Source of the DNA: Campylobacterales bacterium
Lineage (GTDB): Bacteria > Campylobacterota > Campylobacteria > Campylobacterales > Sulfurimonadaceae
Reading direction: 5' to 3'
NCBI GenBank assembly: GCA_016937915.1
Contig: JAFGVR010000233.1
Location: 1 to 10,795 of the forward strand
Length of the DNA: 10,795 nucleotides
A model generated the notes under the pieces. The model worked only from the letters and a program-made list of their open reading frames with translations, did no database searches and was not told the DNA's origin. Both the position numbers and the translations under genes were made by a program. This document shows positions 812 through 6,888 of the stretch, piece by piece; position 1 is the stretch's first letter, and each line of letters begins with the position of its first letter.

Positions 812-873
812 AGTATAAACCTCAGATAAACGATTCTTTAACTAAAGGTTTAAACTCTAGAGTGATTTCGTAA
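797..873 (+). other. Slippery A9 tract with an open -1 frame behind it
   Basis: The run A798-A806 gives the codons GAA AAA AAA ACC and then the stop TAG (809-811). Slipping back one base, or adding one A, reads AAC CTA GAG TAT and onward. That frame stays open for 22 codons (NLEYKPQIND, then SLTKGLNSRVIS) to TAA at 871-873. A 14-of-15 bp inverted repeat starts two bases after the tract (808-822/846-860). A slippery A-tract plus a downstream stem is the layout of -1 frameshift or transcript-slippage sites. The same stem is also the terminator of the opposing lapD gene. The resemblance of the -1 tail to the usual end of this family is from memory. Confidence 0.5.
798..860 (-). terminator. Intrinsic terminator of the lapG-lapD unit
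   Basis: On the - strand, a 15-position stem (860-846 with 822-808, one A-A mismatch) has a 23-nt loop. It is followed by one G (807) and nine consecutive T (806-798). The stem includes the lapD stop codon on one side and the opposing gene's stop codon on the other. There is no T-run after 860 on the + strand, so it should work mainly for the leftward transcript. Confidence 0.75.
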
Positions 874-2770
874 CACCCCCTTGAATGGTATCTACCCCTT
901 TTTGTAAGAGTAGATTTAAATTTTCATTATCATTTACACCAGAAGCTATTAGTTTTATCCCAACAGAGTCTGTTATAAGTCTTATAGCAGATAAAGTTTG
1001 CTCTTTTATAGATATTATATAACTCGCTTCAGCTTTTATATATACAGGTCTTAACTCTTTTATATACTTATAATCTGTACTATCACCTATAAACTCAAAT
1101 ATCCCTATGTCTATACCATATTTTTGAAATAGTTTTTTATACAGCATCATATGTTCAAAATGTTCATAAGCTAGTTTATCTGGAAGTTCTATTATAAGTT
1201 TGAATTGTATATTTTTTGAATGATTTTTTAATAAAGCAGATATATGTTCATACGCATCTTGTGTTTTTAGATACTCATACGCTAATCTAAGTGAACATAC
1301 AGTATCTTTTAATTGATATTGTGGTGTTTTAAAGAGTATCTCTAAGATAGTGTCATAAATATCATGGCTCATCCCAGTATGATTTGCTGGTGCCATAAAT
1401 TGACCATATATATAGTTTGTATCATCTACCATCATATTTATGCTAAGTGTGTTATGAACAATACTTTTATTTTTAACATCTACTGTCTTATATGGTATGA
1501 GCTTAAAAGATTTTGAATCTATAGCTTTTTTTATGTTATATCTCCACTCATCTTTTCCCATAACCTCTAAAGTATTATCATCTTTTTCAAAATAGATTTT
1601 TTGTGAATTAAATTTTGCTTTGGCTAGAGCATTGTCTAAGATAGAAAGTAAAGAAGCTATGGTGTAGTTATAGTGGTATTTGCATAACCCTAATGAAACT
1701 GATGTGATTTTGTTATCAAGTTTCATTTTCTCTATCATTAAATCTGTATCATTCTTTATTTTATGAGCTATCTCTAGTGCTTCTTTCTCATCACAATCTG
1801 GTATAAATAAACAAAACTCTGTACCATTTATCCTAGAGGCTATAGCATCTTTATATTTTTTTATATAAGTTTCTAAAACATTTGCTAAATTTATAAATAA
1901 ATTATCAACCTCTTTATGACCTATCTTTTCATTTGCTTCTGTAACACCACTTAGAGAGATCATCATAGTTGAACCACCACTTGATGTAGCATCCATTTTT
2001 AAAAATTCTGGAAGTTTATCTATAAGATATTTTCTATTTTTTAATTTTGTGTCTTTATCTATATATTCTAACTCTTTTTGGCGTTTTAACTCTTCATTTC
2101 CTTTATCAAACATGGCTTTTACTTTTTCAACCATTACATTCATTCCAATAACTACATCTTCAAATTCTTTTGTAGATGGTATCTCTGATTGTATAATAAA
2201 CTCATTTCTTGTGATAGCTTCAGCTTGAAGTTGAACTTTTTTAAGAGGTTTTAAAATCATAGCTATTAAAAAATTTAGACTAATCAAAGCAAAAAAAGCT
2301 ATTATCCCAAAAGAGATGAGTAGATTTTTTAAGATAGTGTAAAGTTGTATATATGCATAATCGTTATCACCCTCTACATACAAAACACCAACTTGAGACC
2401 AACCTGCACTTATATTGGAGGATGCTATAGGTGGTTTTATATCTAAAATCTCTCTAAACCATTGTGGTACATCTACAATTTTTTGTTCAACTTCTCTCTT
2501 ATAGATGGTATTATCTTCTGTGTCTTTTAAGATAATATAGTGATAATAACCGCTATCAAAACTAGCATCTATCATAGTTGTCATTATCCCTATATCACCG
2601 TTTGTAGTAGTTAAAGATATCCCTAGGGTTGTGGCTGTATTTTTGGCATCTGTGTATAATCTATCTTTTATAGAACTGTTTGCACTTTTAAAATTTAACA
2701 CTAAAACAGTACTAAGAATTATTAGAAGAAATGTAGATATCATCAGTGCTATTTGTCTAAATAGTGTCAT
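857..2770 (-). CDS. lapD: LapD-like inside-out c-di-GMP receptor (periplasmic domain-HAMP-degenerate GGDEF-degenerate EAL)
   Basis: This inner-membrane receptor is expected to bind cytoplasmic c-di-GMP and sequester the protease LapG on the periplasmic side. The 637-residue protein has TM1 (about 7-27), a periplasmic LapD/MoxY-type domain (28-148), TM2 (149-171), HAMP (172-224), GGDEF-like (about 235-395) and EAL-like (about 408-637) domains. Gly123-Trp124 in the periplasmic domain matches the tryptophan loop through which LapD grips LapG (W125 in Pseudomonas). The GGDEF site reads NGTEF (315-319), and the EAL signature reads NTL (440-442). Both domains should be catalytically dead, as in known LapD. 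ATG at 2770 is chosen because it overlaps the lapG stop as ATGA and has AAGGAGAG four bases upstream. A longer frame from 2809 lacks support. It is translationally coupled to lapG and ends in a strong terminator. Confidence 0.88.
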   Translation of the reverse strand: MTLFRQIALMISTFLLIILSTVLVLNFKSANSSIKDRLYTDAKNTATTLGISLTTTNGDIGIMTTMIDASFDSGYYHYIILKDTEDNTIYKREVEQKIVDVPQWFREILDIKPPIASSNISAGWSQVGVLYVEGDNDYAYIQLYTILKNLLISFGIIAFFALISLNFLIAMILKPLKKVQLQAEAITRNEFIIQSEIPSTKEFEDVVIGMNVMVEKVKAMFDKGNEELKRQKELEYIDKDTKLKNRKYLIDKLPEFLKMDATSSGGSTMMISLSGVTEANEKIGHKEVDNLFINLANVLETYIKKYKDAIASRINGTEFCLFIPDCDEKEALEIAHKIKNDTDLMIEKMKLDNKITSVSLGLCKYHYNYTIASLLSILDNALAKAKFNSQKIYFEKDDNTLEVMGKDEWRYNIKKAIDSKSFKLIPYKTVDVKNKSIVHNTLSINMMVDDTNYIYGQFMAPANHTGMSHDIYDTILEILFKTPQYQLKDTVCSLRLAYEYLKTQDAYEHISALLKNHSKNIQFKLIIELPDKLAYEHFEHMMLYKKLFQKYGIDIGIFEFIGDSTDYKYIKELRPVYIKAEASYIISIKEQTLSAIRLITDSVGIKLIASGVNDNENLNLLLQKGVDTIQGGVTKSL

Positions 2771-3399
2771 ATAACTCTCCTTTGTATATTTTGTATAAGT
2801 AGATCCCATTTTCTACCAACTTTTTGACTTACAACTTTTTCACCTGTTGATACTTTCTCAATAGCACCAGCTTGAAGTCTAAAGATAGGTTTTAAATCAT
2901 CTCTTTTGTTTGCTGGTAAAACTTTGAGATTGTAGTTATCTAAGATAAGAGGGATGGATGATGGTTTTTTATAGTAAGCTAAAACCATGTGGGATTCGGT
3001 AAATTTTGTAGATTTTACATAAAAAAAGAACATTTTTTTTTCATCTACTCCTAGATGTTTTAGTGCAAAATATTTAGCTATGACATAATCTTCACAATCC
3101 CCACTATCTCTTGCTAAAAATTCATAAGGGGTAGCCCAATAATCACTAACGCCATAGTTTTTTTTATCAGATTGATATTTAACATCATTATAAAAACTAT
3201 TTACTGCATCCAGTTTTTTTTCATCAGTTGCATCTTTTATCGAATCAAGCATTTGTTGTTGATAAAAAAATCTTTTTTTTGCATATATATCATATTTTTT
3301 TTCTATCTCACTAATAAGCTCTGTATCTACATAATCACTATTTGCAGATGTTATAATAACAGTAGATGCGATTATGAAAAAATATCTAAAAAAAAACAT
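2767..3399 (-). CDS. lapG: LapG-like periplasmic calcium-dependent cysteine protease (BTLCP family)
   Basis: LapG proteases cut the N-terminal region of giant RTX adhesins to release them from the outer membrane and disperse biofilm. This 210-residue protein has an N-terminal signal segment (about 1-21, ending near SANS). Its transglutaminase-like triad is Cys102 (in GDCEDY), His137 (in ESHMVLAY) and Asp154 (in LDNY). The His-Asp spacing of 17 equals that of Pseudomonas LapG (H172-D189). Asp101 and Glu103 flanking the cysteine match the calcium ligands D134/E136 there. The gene follows the radical SAM gene by 23 bp and overlaps lapD by 4 bp. The start at 3399 is the only Met before the signal segment. 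It has no real Shine-Dalgarno sequence, and TATAAT lies five bases upstream. Codons 2-4 form a T9 run, and the gene holds five further 8-9 nt A-runs. The substrate adhesin and its type I exporter are not in the window. Confidence 0.9.
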   Translation of the reverse strand: MFFFRYFFIIASTVIITSANSDYVDTELISEIEKKYDIYAKKRFFYQQQMLDSIKDATDEKKLDAVNSFYNDVKYQSDKKNYGVSDYWATPYEFLARDSGDCEDYVIAKYFALKHLGVDEKKMFFFYVKSTKFTESHMVLAYYKKPSSIPLILDNYNLKVLPANKRDDLKPIFRLQAGAIEKVSTGEKVVSQKVGRKWDLLIQNIQRRVI

Positions 3400-3422: not shown

Positions 3423-4922
3423 TTATATCTGTCTTTTGTTAAAACCTGAACTTCCCTCTTGCATCTTAAACTCTATATCAGATGCGTAAGGTTTTAAGTA
3501 TTTTGGAATTGCTCTTCCTTTTAGTTTCATCATATCTTCAAGCATATTTGCAGCTATATCTTTTGGCTCTAAAGATTTCATTTCACTAAGGTATCTAAAT
3601 AAAAGTTCCCCCATCCTATCTAGCGATATTTTCCATGTAGAATCGGTTTGTTCATAAAGCCAGATGCTAAAATGGTAGAAGTTTTCATAAACACTCCCAT
3701 CACCCCATATCATCCCAACTGAGCGTTTAAAATTTCCACTGTTGTAAGTTATATCCCAAAATCTTGCAAATCTTTTCATTATCTGAATATCTTTAAAACT
3801 TAAAAGATTGTTTTTTAGTATGTCATAAGGGGGTAAATCACTATACACCATCCCATGCTCTATATCGTGCCTATCTAGTTTTGTCCCTGATAATTTTTTT
3901 AAGATGCCAAGCTGTATCTCACTAGAACTAAGCGATACAAGCTCATCGAGATTTTTACCAAAACTCTCTAGTGACTCACCTGGTAAACCGATGATTAAAT
4001 CTAAGTGGATATGTGCAGATGTTTCATTTTCTAAGTAGCTTATATTCTCTTTTATCTTCTCTAAATTTAACACCCTTGAGATGTTTTTAGCGATTTGTTG
4101 ATTTAGAGTTTGTATCCCTATCTCAAGCTGCAAAGCACCTTTTGGAAACATCTTTATCTTCTCTTTTAGTGATGATGGAAAATGATCAGGTATAACTTCA
4201 AAATGGACAAAATATTTACCATCTTTTTCTAGAAAAAAATCTAAAATCTTATTGGCTGTTTTTATATTTATGTTAAAAGTTCTATCTACAAACTTAAAGT
4301 TTCTAGCACCCCTATCCCAAAGTTTTTGAAACTCATTTAAAACTTCATCAAGATTAAATGTTCTAACCCTCTCATCAATTGATGATAAACAAAACTCACA
4401 CTCAAACGGACAACCCCTTGATATCTCTACATATATATATCTATTTTTTATATCAAAGTCGGTGTAGTAACTATATGGAAGTTTTAACTCTTTTAAATTT
4501 GGAACGGTTGGTTTTATAATCTTTTTATCAACTACTTTACCACCGTGTAAAGATTTGCAAAGCTCATAAAAAGCAACATCACCCTCACCCTGAACTACAT
4601 AATCAGCCAATGAAAAATCAACCCTAAAAGGGGTGTGACTAACCTCTGGACCACCTAAAACAACTGTAGTTTTAGGAGATACTTTTTTTATGATATGGAG
4701 TAGTTCATAAACCTCTAACGCATTCCAGATATATACTCCGATGCCAACTATGGTTGGATTTGTATCTAAAATCTTCTCAGCTACGCTTTGCATGGCATCG
4801 TTTATACTAAATTCAATTATCTCAGTAGCTTGTTGAAACTCTTGCATATTTGCATATATATATCTAAGCCCTATGGAGCTTTGTGTAAAACGGGAATTTA
4901 AAGTTGTAAGTACTATTTTCAT
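3423..4922 (-). CDS. Radical SAM protein with N-terminal cobalamin-binding-type domain and DUF4080-like C-terminus
   Basis: This is an uncharacterised radical SAM enzyme of 499 residues. The N-terminal part (about 1-140) has the Rossmann-like layout of B12-binding domains, including VVLGGPEVSH (about 87-96) and YVVQGEGD (108-115). It shows no DxHxxG base-off cobalamin motif. The radical SAM core (about 160-380) carries Cys171, Cys175 and Cys178 in CPFECEFC (CxxxCxxC, for the 4Fe-4S cluster and S-adenosylmethionine). It also has the later motifs QLEIGIQTLN and DLIIGLPGES, seen in this class. The C-terminal 120 or so residues resemble DUF4080, which usually accompanies this arrangement. The substrate is unknown. 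ATG at 4922 begins the typical MKIVLTTLNSRF start; the ribosome-binding site is weak. The gene lies just after a terminator and leads into lapG after 23 bp, so it may head a radical SAM-lapG-lapD transcript. Confidence 0.88.
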   Translation of the reverse strand: MKIVLTTLNSRFTQSSIGLRYIYANMQEFQQATEIIEFSINDAMQSVAEKILDTNPTIVGIGVYIWNALEVYELLHIIKKVSPKTTVVLGGPEVSHTPFRVDFSLADYVVQGEGDVAFYELCKSLHGGKVVDKKIIKPTVPNLKELKLPYSYYTDFDIKNRYIYVEISRGCPFECEFCLSSIDERVRTFNLDEVLNEFQKLWDRGARNFKFVDRTFNINIKTANKILDFFLEKDGKYFVHFEVIPDHFPSSLKEKIKMFPKGALQLEIGIQTLNQQIAKNISRVLNLEKIKENISYLENETSAHIHLDLIIGLPGESLESFGKNLDELVSLSSSEIQLGILKKLSGTKLDRHDIEHGMVYSDLPPYDILKNNLLSFKDIQIMKRFARFWDITYNSGNFKRSVGMIWGDGSVYENFYHFSIWLYEQTDSTWKISLDRMGELLFRYLSEMKSLEPKDIAANMLEDMMKLKGRAIPKYLKPYASDIEFKMQEGSSGFNKRQI

Positions 4923-4940
4923 GAAATTTCTTTATAGAGG

Positions 4941-4989
4941 AAAAAACCAACCAAGCTAAACAAAAGGGGAAAACGCTTGGTTGTTTTTT
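4941..4989 (-). terminator. Terminator after the chemoreceptor gene (near-symmetrical, may act both ways)
   Basis: CAACCAAGC (4948-4956) and GCTTGGTTG (4975-4983) form a perfect 9-bp stem with an 18-nt loop. It is flanked by A6 (4941-4946) and T6 (4984-4989). On the - strand it ends with G then T6, so it should terminate the PAS-chemoreceptor transcript and the candidate small RNA. It lies only 18 bp before the radical SAM start codon. Confidence 0.75.
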
Positions 4990-5045
4990 AATAATTGTTA
5001 AGAGTATTTAGCACTCATTATGAAAGGGGGAAAACATAATTGAGC
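4941..5045 (-). ncRNA. Candidate small RNA (about 105 nt) with two hairpins bearing C-rich loops
   Basis: Reading leftward, a -10 box TATAAT (5057-5052) predicts a start near 5045. The RNA would open with a hairpin of CTCAATTATG against CATAATGAG (5044-5035/5022-5014, one bulged A). Its 12-nt loop is TTTTCCCCCTTT. An AU-rich linker follows, then a terminator hairpin (4983-4975/4956-4948) whose loop contains GTTTTCCCCTTTT, and a T6 tail (4946-4941). Promoter, two stems, linker and U-tail together form a normal small-RNA gene. A C/U-rich terminator loop recalls RepG of Helicobacter pylori, which targets a chemoreceptor mRNA. It could instead simply be the 3' untranslated region of the chemoreceptor mRNA. 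No homology has been tested. Confidence 0.4.
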
Positions 5046-5051
5046 ATCAAA

Positions 5052-5057
5052 ATTATA
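5052..5057 (-). promoter_or_regulatory. -10 box for the candidate small RNA
   Basis: TATAAT on the - strand sits seven bases before the first hairpin stem, so the predicted start (about 5045) coincides with the base of that hairpin. A weak TTGCCT (5082-5077) lies 19 bp upstream as a possible -35. The alternative use is as a promoter for the radical SAM gene, but the terminator at 4941-4989 stands in the way. Confidence 0.4.
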
Positions 5058-5095
5058 ATAACTATTGGTTAACATTAGGCAAATGGATCTTATAT

Positions 5096-6400
5096 CTATT
5101 TTCTAACTTTATGTTGAACCAACATATCATCAAGTTTTCCAAATAATACTTGAGATGCATCTTCCATTTTTGAGAAGTTTTGATAAACTAACTCAGGATT
5201 GGTTCCTTTTAGGGTTGTTCCAGTTTCTACAAATTTTAAGTTAGCAAAAACTTGTTGATGAACAGTTGCGTGTGGGGCTTCCATCTCTTTATAAGCTTTT
5301 GTATCTCCAAAAACCTCTTTTGCGATTCCTGTGTACCATTTACCCATACGACAATTATGATGATCTGCAAACTTCATCTCTCTATTTTCAGATGTAACGG
5401 CATGATAAGCGTTGTTTTTGAAAATAATATGGTCAACTTTAACTAAAGTTGTAAAGAATCTATCTTGTGTCTCTTTTGCTATTAGTGATGTATTTTCAGC
5501 TAAGCTATTAAGTTGTGTAAATGTTTGTTCAAACTCATTTATAACTTGATTTGAAGCTGATGCTATCTCTGAGATAGTATCTGAGTTGTTTCTCATCTCA
5601 TTTGTCTCTTGTTGAAGAGTTGAGATATTTATCTCTATCTCACTTGTTGCTTTTTGAGTTCTCTCTGCTAATTTTCTAACTTCATCAGCAACAACTGCAA
5701 ATCCACGACCATGCTCACCAGCTCTTGCTGCCTCAATGGCTGCATTAAGTGCTAATAGATTTGTTTGATCAGCTATATCTTTGATAAGATTTATAACTTG
5801 ACTTATTTCACTTGAACGGGTCTCTAAACTCATAATACCATGATGCGATGTCTCTATAAGCTCAACAAGCTTTCCAAGTCTTTGAGATATATCTACTACA
5901 CTGCTTAAACTTTTTGATGACTCTTCAGCTGTTTTATGTGCAACTTCTACTATCTCTTGAGCACCATCTTGAGAAGTTGTTATATCTGATTGGATAACTG
6001 CTAAACCAGCTGCAACCCCACCACCTAATTTGTTTAGTTTATGTGCAAGTTCTGCTCTAGCTTTTGTGGTTTGACCAAGTGCTATAGATTCACTAGCTTC
6101 AAATAAGCTTTGAGCCATATTTTTAAACTCACCATTAAGTCCAGATGTATAGGTGTGTCTATAAGCTTTACCTTGAGAAGCACCCTCTACAGTAGCTTTT
6201 GCATCACGCATGAAAGCTTCGGTTTGGTCTAGCAGATCATTTATAGCCCATGCAAATTTTGACTCTTTGCTTCCATCTTGTGGTATGTTTGTAACACGCC
6301 CCTCCAAATTACCATTAGCCGCATCCATGACAACTTTCATCATCTTGTCCATACAAGCTTGTGTTTTAGAGTTATCCTTGAAGAGAGATGATAAATTCAT
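5096..6400 (-). CDS. Soluble methyl-accepting chemotaxis protein with C-terminal zinc-binding CZB domain
   Basis: This 434-residue chemoreceptor has no transmembrane segment, so it should signal from the cytoplasm to CheA/CheW. The N-terminal 110 residues contain two HAMP-like helical units (for example NGNLEGRV and [12 protein letters not shown]). The signalling region has the highly conserved hairpin tip around 206-252 ([16 protein letters not shown]). The C-terminus is a CZB domain with ligands His324, Cys350 (in CRMGKWY), His377 and His381. The Cys-His-His spacings of 27 and 4 equal those of E. coli DgcZ (C52, H79, H83). There is no C-terminal CheR-binding pentapeptide. ATG at 6400 lies inside the end of the PAS gene (29-bp overlap), with AAGGA ten bases upstream and no alternative in-frame start. 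It most likely works with the PAS protein as a split Aer-type receptor. Confidence 0.93.
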
Positions 6401-6857
6401 TGTAGTCCATTCCTTTCTCGTTTAATAAATCTGTCAAAACTTTAGTTCCAGCACTTACACCACCACCTCTTTCAGCATTTAGCATCGTTTGATATAGTGA
6501 TTTTACAGCTTCTATCGCAGATGGGTTTGGCATCCTTCTAACAGAATAAAAACCAACGATATTTCCTCTAGAATCGTAAGATGGAGTTACATTGGCAAAT
6601 ACCCAATAGGCGTTCCCATTTTTTGTTTTATTGATTACAAAAGCAAAAACTTCCTTTCCACTTTGAACATAATCCCAAAGAAGTTTGAAAACAGCCTTTG
6701 GCATATCTTGATGACGAATCATGTTGTGAGGCTTACCTAAAAGCTCATGCTCACTATACTCACCCATCTCCATAAATATTTTATTTACATAAGTTATACG
6801 ACCTTTTGTATCTGTTTTTGAAACAATAAAATCGCCATCTTTTAAATGTTTTAACAT
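6372..6857 (-). CDS. Aer/CetB-like single PAS domain protein (probable redox/energy-taxis sensor)
   Basis: The 161-residue protein consists of one PAS domain (about 8-110) and a helical tail (111-161). The PAS core closely resembles the FAD-binding PAS of E. coli Aer, with [29 protein letters not shown] and GFYSVRR. Arg48, His49 and Asp51 match the Aer FAD residues R57/H58/D60, but the position of Aer Trp79 is Val70. In Campylobacter, CetB is likewise a separate PAS protein paired with the receptor CetA. Here the partner is presumably the overlapping soluble chemoreceptor. The start at 6857 is preferred because AAGGTGG (6872-6866) sits eight bases upstream. The upstream in-frame ATG at 6875 has no ribosome-binding site and lies at the predicted start of transcription. 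The gene heads a two-gene unit. Confidence 0.9.
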
Positions 6858-6888
6858 AAAAAAACCCACCTTCATTTTTACTAAGATA

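Follow-up and report, generated by a model that had tools for sequence, protein, structure and literature searches.

What lies in the short interval between a chemoreceptor gene and a radical-SAM gene on the minus strand of this 10,795-nucleotide stretch of DNA (here called the window)? A reading made from the letters alone (the sequence-only reading) had proposed a small RNA gene consisting of a TATAAT box, a hairpin, an AU linker, and a terminator with a T6 tail, and that layout was confirmed on the minus strand in nearly every detail (Table 1). The loop core that it had described as shared, GTTTTCCCC, was likewise found at exactly the positions assigned to it, 5035-5027 and 4974-4966 on the minus strand. 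The segment from 4939 to 5047 was predicted to fold with a minimum free energy of −22.1 kcal/mol, compared with a mean of −11.25 for shuffled sequences (z, −4.48), and none of 200 shuffles folded as well. Moreover, AAGGGGGAA occurred at six sites in the window when up to one mismatch was allowed, against 1.64 expected, a number reached by none of 200 shuffles, and three of the six sites were in the loops of the small RNA. Within 4800-5200, a promoter scan returned one site (TATTAT at 5060-5055, minus strand) against 2.3 in shuffles, which is not above chance, and a terminator scan limited to loops of 3 to 8 found none. The element was accepted as real despite these simple scans because it is conserved in 112 of 135 same-genus genomes. 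We conclude that the window very probably contains a real and uncatalogued small RNA gene that is present in most sampled Sulfurimonas species. On the plus strand, hairpin 2 is also followed by TTTTTT (4984-4989; hairpin and tail, 4948-4989), and thus it could terminate transcription in both directions.

Table 1. Positions of the small RNA gene, its predicted parts, and its neighbors in the window
Feature	Coordinates	Strand	Details	Basis
Small RNA	5046-4941	−	~105 nt; 3′ end is T6 at 4946-4941	Predicted
−10 box TATAAT	5057-5052	−	T at −6 in 96% and A at −8 in 90% of 113 upstream regions	Sequence
Direct repeat	5083-5065	−	Half-sites TTTGCCTA (5083-5076) and TTAACCAA (5072-5065), 11 bp apart	Column conservation, 113 regions
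Hairpin 1	5044-5014	−	Arms 5044-5035 and 5022-5014; loop TTTTCCCCCTTT (5034-5023)	
AU-rich linker	5013-4984	−	Mostly unpaired in predicted fold	
Hairpin 2 (Rho-independent terminator)	4983-4948	−	Arms 4983-4975 and 4956-4948; loop GTTTTCCCCTTTTGTTTA (4974-4957)	
B12-binding radical-SAM protein (DUF4080)	3423-4922	−	Downstream neighbor	Pfam
CZB-domain chemoreceptor	5096-6400	−	Upstream neighbor; not part of the RNA gene	Pfam

Conservation was followed by alignment and by covariance models. A DNA search of 60 same-genus genomes supplied the 30 best loci, one per genome, which were aligned with MAFFT (alignment A1), and a covariance model, R1, was trained on 30 genomes. R1 matched 112 of the 135 same-genus genomes, including 71 of 79 good ones, with one match each except in a single genome with two; outside the training set it matched 82 of 105. 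In the window, whose sequence was itself in the training set, the match covered 5046-4941 (E value, 1.4e-13). R1 found no match in 23 of the 135 genomes, some of which are incomplete, and 8 of the 79 good ones were also without one. The genus appears to be Sulfurimonas from the names of the matching genomes; when named genomes were scanned for an exact pattern, 33 loci were obtained, of which 22 had titles naming Sulfurimonas (S. indica among them) and the others bore different or broader names. One locus (L145:1501-1700, genome G024) holds a decayed copy 5′ of the radical-SAM gene, in which the promoter repeat and the start of hairpin 1 are left and the stems are gone, which indicates that the small RNA can be lost.

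Beyond the genus, matches were few. R1 matched 18 of 298 genomes sampled from the order: 14 from the genus, 2 from its sister genus, and 2 others, of which G403 was weak and G309, from another family, was strong (E value, 1.2e-16) and again lay after a CZB chemoreceptor gene. The G309 match has the same position as a match in a 3.9-kb contig titled as a Hydrogenimonas metagenome-assembled genome, and thus may come from a stray contig. A second model, R2, matched 122 of 228 genomes of the family in 4 of 18 genera (112 from the genus, 8 from the sister genus, 2 of them weak, 1 strong match in another genus, and 1 weak match with an E value of 0.08) and 17 of 298 genomes of the class in 3 of 58 genera. 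Outside its own family, R1 found only G309 and the weak G403 among the 298 order genomes, and R2 only G403 among the 298 class genomes. The sister-genus versions (L071:1501-1616 and L072:1501-1615) have diverged in sequence and lie behind different upstream DNA; they keep a CUCCCC loop, a loop with a C run plus UUUU, and an ACTCCT linker. We conclude that, within reach of R1 and R2, the small RNA hardly extends beyond Sulfurimonas and its sister genus.

The RNA did not correspond to a catalogued family. Rfam 15, at the gathering cutoff, returned only four tRNAs for the whole window, and between 4900 and 5110, with E values up to 10 allowed, the best match was a weak one of 20.7 bits against a cutoff of 55, with no credible family. 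Identity with LhrC or STnc240 was rejected on Rfam scores far below the cutoffs (for LhrC, 16.2 bits against a gathering cutoff of 110; E value, 4.1). A literature search, with coverage that left out preprints and most subscription journals, listed no paper whose title or opening abstract lines dealt with a Sulfurimonas small RNA. The element was rated as a new RNA family of an already known functional kind.

The sequence-only reading had named conservation of stems and loops in relatives as one of two tests of its proposal beforehand, and the stems were found to covary and the loops to be kept. In the 30 sequences of A1, 92.9% of cells pair, and at most 50.1% do so when the partner is slid; 10 of 19 pairs, with 38 cells, changed on both sides, which none of 500 shuffles reached. 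A larger alignment of 100 model-aligned sequences (A2), 28 of which were training sequences, had double changes in all 11 terminator-stem pairs and 270 double-change cells over the whole structure against 67 in shuffles. A2 is, however, biased toward the model, and its count of double-change pairs was reached by 24 of 500 shuffles. The stem of hairpin 1 paired in 93.3% of cells in A1, and its two helices paired in 95.6% and 97.6% in A2. Even the most variable stem columns of A2, 93 and 132 (0.10 and 0.07 bits), still pair together.

The loops behaved differently from the stems. Core C columns of both loops carry 1.4 to 1.8 bits in A2, a C run of at least 3 is present in 99 of 100 hairpin 1 loops, and CCC is present in 95 of 100 loops of hairpin 2 and absent from 5. 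The longer CCCTTT is found in 93 of 100 hairpin 1 loops and 91 of 100 hairpin 2 loops, and 99 of 100 hairpin 1 loops contain no G. As the stems are variable yet paired and the loop C columns are kept, selection acts on the loops independently of the stem. The linker also has a core conserved in the genus, CTCCTA..AATTWTT, with several A2 columns at 1.2 to 2.0 bits. Between species in A2, the length of the C run ranges from 2 to 9 in the hairpin 1 loop and from 0 to 9 in that of hairpin 2, a possible site of slippage.

To define the promoter and the neighborhood, 114 loci were compared, comprising 111 of 112 genus genomes plus L061, L071, and L072, with G041 and the second match in G130 left out. 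In 113 upstream regions (one locus had no upstream DNA), conservation rose block-wise from −38 to −5, was low from −4 to −1, and jumped at the A of ATCTC. We conclude that transcription probably starts at this A, which places the start in the window at 5046 rather than 5045. Upstream of the −10 box, a direct repeat with the genus consensus TTWACYTA-N3-TTWACTTA was conserved. The exact consensus occurred at 12 sites in 26 genomes, of which 9 were at the small RNA, 1 was at the decayed copy, and 2 were elsewhere, against 2 for a reversed control; it was present in only 9 of the 20 genomes of that set in which R1 found the small RNA, and the repeat of the window deviates from consensus and is not among the 12. 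The repeat is a possible candidate site for a regulator that would bind two half-sites on one helix face. In all, the comparison supported the earlier claim that a small RNA with C/U-rich sequence in both loops is encoded here under a promoter of its own.

What might such an RNA do? Both loops are kept as C/U runs and thus may recognize G-rich mRNAs. Hfq (PF17209) was detected in none of 30 genus genomes, 28 of which had a completeness of at least 90% and a contamination of no more than 5%, with a control search that detected it in 5 of 14 known genomes. We infer pairing in trans with G-rich mRNAs because hairpin 1 loops are G free, because RepG and CJnc190 provide precedents, and because Hfq was not found. 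In the mechanism that we propose, a DNA-binding regulator would control transcription of the RNA through the 11-bp direct repeat, and the RNA would act in trans independently of Hfq. Its CCCCUUU loops would pair with runs of G in mRNA, for example AAAGGGG in a ribosome-binding site, and pairing would most likely repress translation; the two equivalent loops could let one RNA bind two sites or could raise the effective concentration. Taken with the comparative data above, the element is probably a stand-alone gene for a regulatory RNA of ~105 nt that occurs almost exclusively in Sulfurimonas and its sister genus and would act in trans without Hfq by way of its loops.

In silico screens found no conserved target mRNA. 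Of 26 genomes, 14 contained the exact 12-nt loop complement AAAGGGGGAAAA, with 19 sites in total, whereas the reversed pattern had 15 sites; 7 of the 19 were the RNA's own loops, and no common gene was seen at the other 12, apart from an MFS gene that carries an antisense site in two genomes. AAGGGGRA before ATG was not clearly enriched over its reversal (39 versus 30 in G030, 13 versus 9 in G008, 12 versus 15 in G060, and 5 versus 8 in G067; DNA was inspected for 30 loci and 20 regions of the 69 sites). AAAGGGG before ATG was above the control (28 versus 16 in G067, 27 versus 14 in G065, 31 versus 22 in G060, and 53 versus 20 in G010; DNA was inspected for 30 loci and 20 regions of the 139 sites), an excess that was not counted in favor of the small RNA because it includes repeated multicopy sites and ordinary Shine-Dalgarno use.

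Individual candidates were also followed across genomes. Perfect loop complements were present at two gene starts of the tad pilus operon in G010. Secretin orthologs of at least 53% identity were found in 13 of 100 genomes (75 of 100 have a match at an E value of 1e-10, mostly to other secretins), and the tad secretin was rejected as a conserved target, with GGGG before 4 of 12 starts (13 loci read, one being another gene). Two genomes share AAAGGGGTCAAAATG at an S24-type regulator gene that is present in 42 of 45 genomes; this candidate was rejected as well, with GGGG in 6 of 28 readable upstream regions (30 loci, 29 starts). In L330-L359, a promoter-like block (TTTGAC..., TATAAT) precedes this widespread S24/HTH regulator gene. 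Within the window, the starts of seven genes (PAS, chemoreceptor, and five others) had no G run longer than 3 between −60 and +21, and the best duplex among them, at the PAS start, was −10.0 kcal/mol. The target of RepG is a homopolymeric G-repeat in the leader of a chemoreceptor mRNA, and no such repeat was found at the start of the window's chemoreceptor gene. Control of the adjacent chemoreceptor gene, which is one of the seven, was not supported.

A broader reading, which we consider doubtful, is that the RNA is a genus-wide core regulator in which two interchangeable C-rich loops, under a dedicated tandem-site regulator, would tune many G-rich ribosome-binding sites in Hfq-free sulfur oxidizers, the length of the RNA's own C run (2 to 9 in loop 1) setting the strength of pairing. 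Such variation of the small RNA would be the mirror image of RepG, where it is the G run of the target that varies.

The result of the target screens bears on a different function, in which an RNA-binding protein, not mRNA, would be bound by the C/U-rich loops and the RNA would act as its sponge. The lack of an mRNA target in the screens is compatible with this idea, and the presence of two near-identical loops in a single molecule is reminiscent of RNAs that titrate proteins. Against it, we know of no bacterial protein that is titrated through CCCCUUU loops, and CsrA prefers GGA. Moreover, the Campylobacterota precedents with C/U-rich loops, described in the reports cited below, base pair with mRNA. 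We consider a sponge improbable, and pairing with mRNA is retained as the preferred reading of the loops.

The neighborhood bears on whether the element is a gene at all or part of an adjacent transcript. Among the 114 loci, the radical-SAM gene was adjacent downstream in 102 and displaced in 6; in 4 it did not turn up within 1.6 kb, and 2 were at a contig end. Upstream, 72 loci had a same-strand CZB chemoreceptor gene, 35 had a divergent MFS gene, and 6 had something else, and 1 was at a contig end. A special link of the RNA to the chemoreceptor, as the sequence-only reading had supposed, was therefore not upheld, the gene being directly upstream in 72 loci and not there in 41. The RNA persists without either neighbor, which argues that it is a gene of its own. 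In the window, a PAS-domain protein gene overlaps the CZB chemoreceptor gene (5096-6875) as an energy-taxis-like pair. Elsewhere in the window, a LapD-like gene (LapD_MoxY_N, GGDEF, and EAL) overlaps a gene for a C93 transglutaminase-like protease (857-3399), an arrangement like that of LapD/LapG pairs, and four tRNA genes (Pro, His, Arg, and Arg) are clustered at 5-386.

The association with the radical-SAM gene, which starts 5 to 44 nt past the RNA end where it is directly downstream (102 of 114), could indicate a 5′ leader of that gene, an attenuator or riboswitch with hairpin 2 as a regulated terminator, and the B12 and SAM chemistry of the encoded protein would suit a riboswitch. In most loci, however, the radical-SAM gene appears to have an extended −10 element of its own: among the 102 adjacent loci, 86 contained TGNTANANT in the last 40 nt ahead of the ATG, against 1.6% in shuffles, and in 83 of the 86 it was 5 to 7 nt before the ATG. 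A Shine-Dalgarno-like word preceded the ATG in 3 of the 102. The extended −10 near the ATG and the rarity of Shine-Dalgarno words suggest that the gene has its own promoter and a leaderless mRNA, and that the RNA is not its leader. TGNTANANT was absent from 16 of the 102, including the window, where TATAAA at 4936-4931 is no clear example. Furthermore, the RNA is kept in the 6 loci in which the gene is displaced and the 4 in which it was not found, and no Rfam riboswitch matched. A leader is thus quite improbable, and we conclude that in most relatives the radical-SAM gene is probably a separate transcription unit with a leaderless mRNA. Its extended −10 is squeezed between the small RNA terminator and the ATG.

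The element could also merely terminate transcription from the chemoreceptor operon that lies upstream. As a terminator, hairpin 2 may well stop read-through, and the chemoreceptor match ends 29 to 133 nt upstream in 70 of 72 loci (202 and 355 nt in the other two). The 35 loci with a divergent MFS gene upstream (at a distance of 55 to 355 nt in 33 of them and of 620 and 974 nt in the other two) nevertheless keep the promoter, hairpin 1, the linker, and the loops, and a plain terminator needs neither hairpin 1 nor C-rich loops, which makes this explanation very improbable. Finally, a small peptide encoded from the ATG in hairpin 1 is scarcely credible: of 100 sequences, 90 have ATG at this codon and 10 have GTG, but the length of the loop that follows ranges between 10 and 15 nt (10 nt in 11, 11 in 18, 12 in 54, 13 in 10, 14 in 6, and 15 in 1), the first stop after the first ATG falls at codon 4 to 30 or past the RNA in 32 of 100 (the 10 GTG sequences being read from a later ATG), and no reading frame in the RNA was conserved across the 100. 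Neighbor counts and the separate extended −10 thus disfavor the leader, neighbor counts the terminator, and frame variation the peptide, and the stand-alone regulatory RNA remains the preferred reading.

The noncoding RNAs of Campylobacter jejuni and Helicobacter pylori are described as not conserved between these species except for stable RNAs such as 6S (PMC3847290). For this phylum it would be unusual to see a clearly covarying small RNA that is kept across most of a genus and is also present in a sister genus. Such an RNA would also be a tractable regulator, with obvious mutants to make in its loops, for Campylobacterota that are free-living and Hfq free.

Known small RNAs offer parallels for the loops. 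LhrC of Listeria and other small RNAs with UCCC loops use C-rich loops to recognize ribosome-binding sites; LhrC is alike in having such loops, and its sequence does not match the element. In C. jejuni, CJnc190 uses a C/U-rich loop to pair with the G-rich ribosome-binding site of ptmG, which it thereby represses, and CJnc190 is processed by RNase III from precursors opposite CJnc180 (PMC8687705). The element shares the C/U-rich loop with CJnc190 and differs from it in its apparent stand-alone promoter and terminator. The C/U-rich loop of RepG acts on a G-rich mRNA site, and RepG, which lies between hp1043 and hp1044, has been described in H. pylori and in the related species H. acinonychis, H. 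cetorum, and H. mustelae (PMC8295292). RepG (HPnc5490) resembles the element in being a short stand-alone small RNA gene of the Campylobacterota with a C/U-rich terminator loop and proposed pairing to G-rich mRNA. In contrast to RepG, the element has two C/U-rich loops, a conserved direct-repeat promoter, another lineage, and another neighborhood: RepG lies beside the hp1043 response regulator gene, whereas the element lies between chemoreceptor and radical-SAM genes and, in relatives, beside these or an MFS gene. The analogy with RepG drawn in the sequence-only reading therefore stands as one of mechanism, for which a C/U-rich loop acting on a G-rich mRNA site is precedented, and its kinship with RepG is unproven. 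With fair confidence, the likeness to RepG and CJnc190 may be taken as one in the way of working. The element suggests that the pairing of C/U-rich loops with G-rich sites is a recurrent solution in this phylum.
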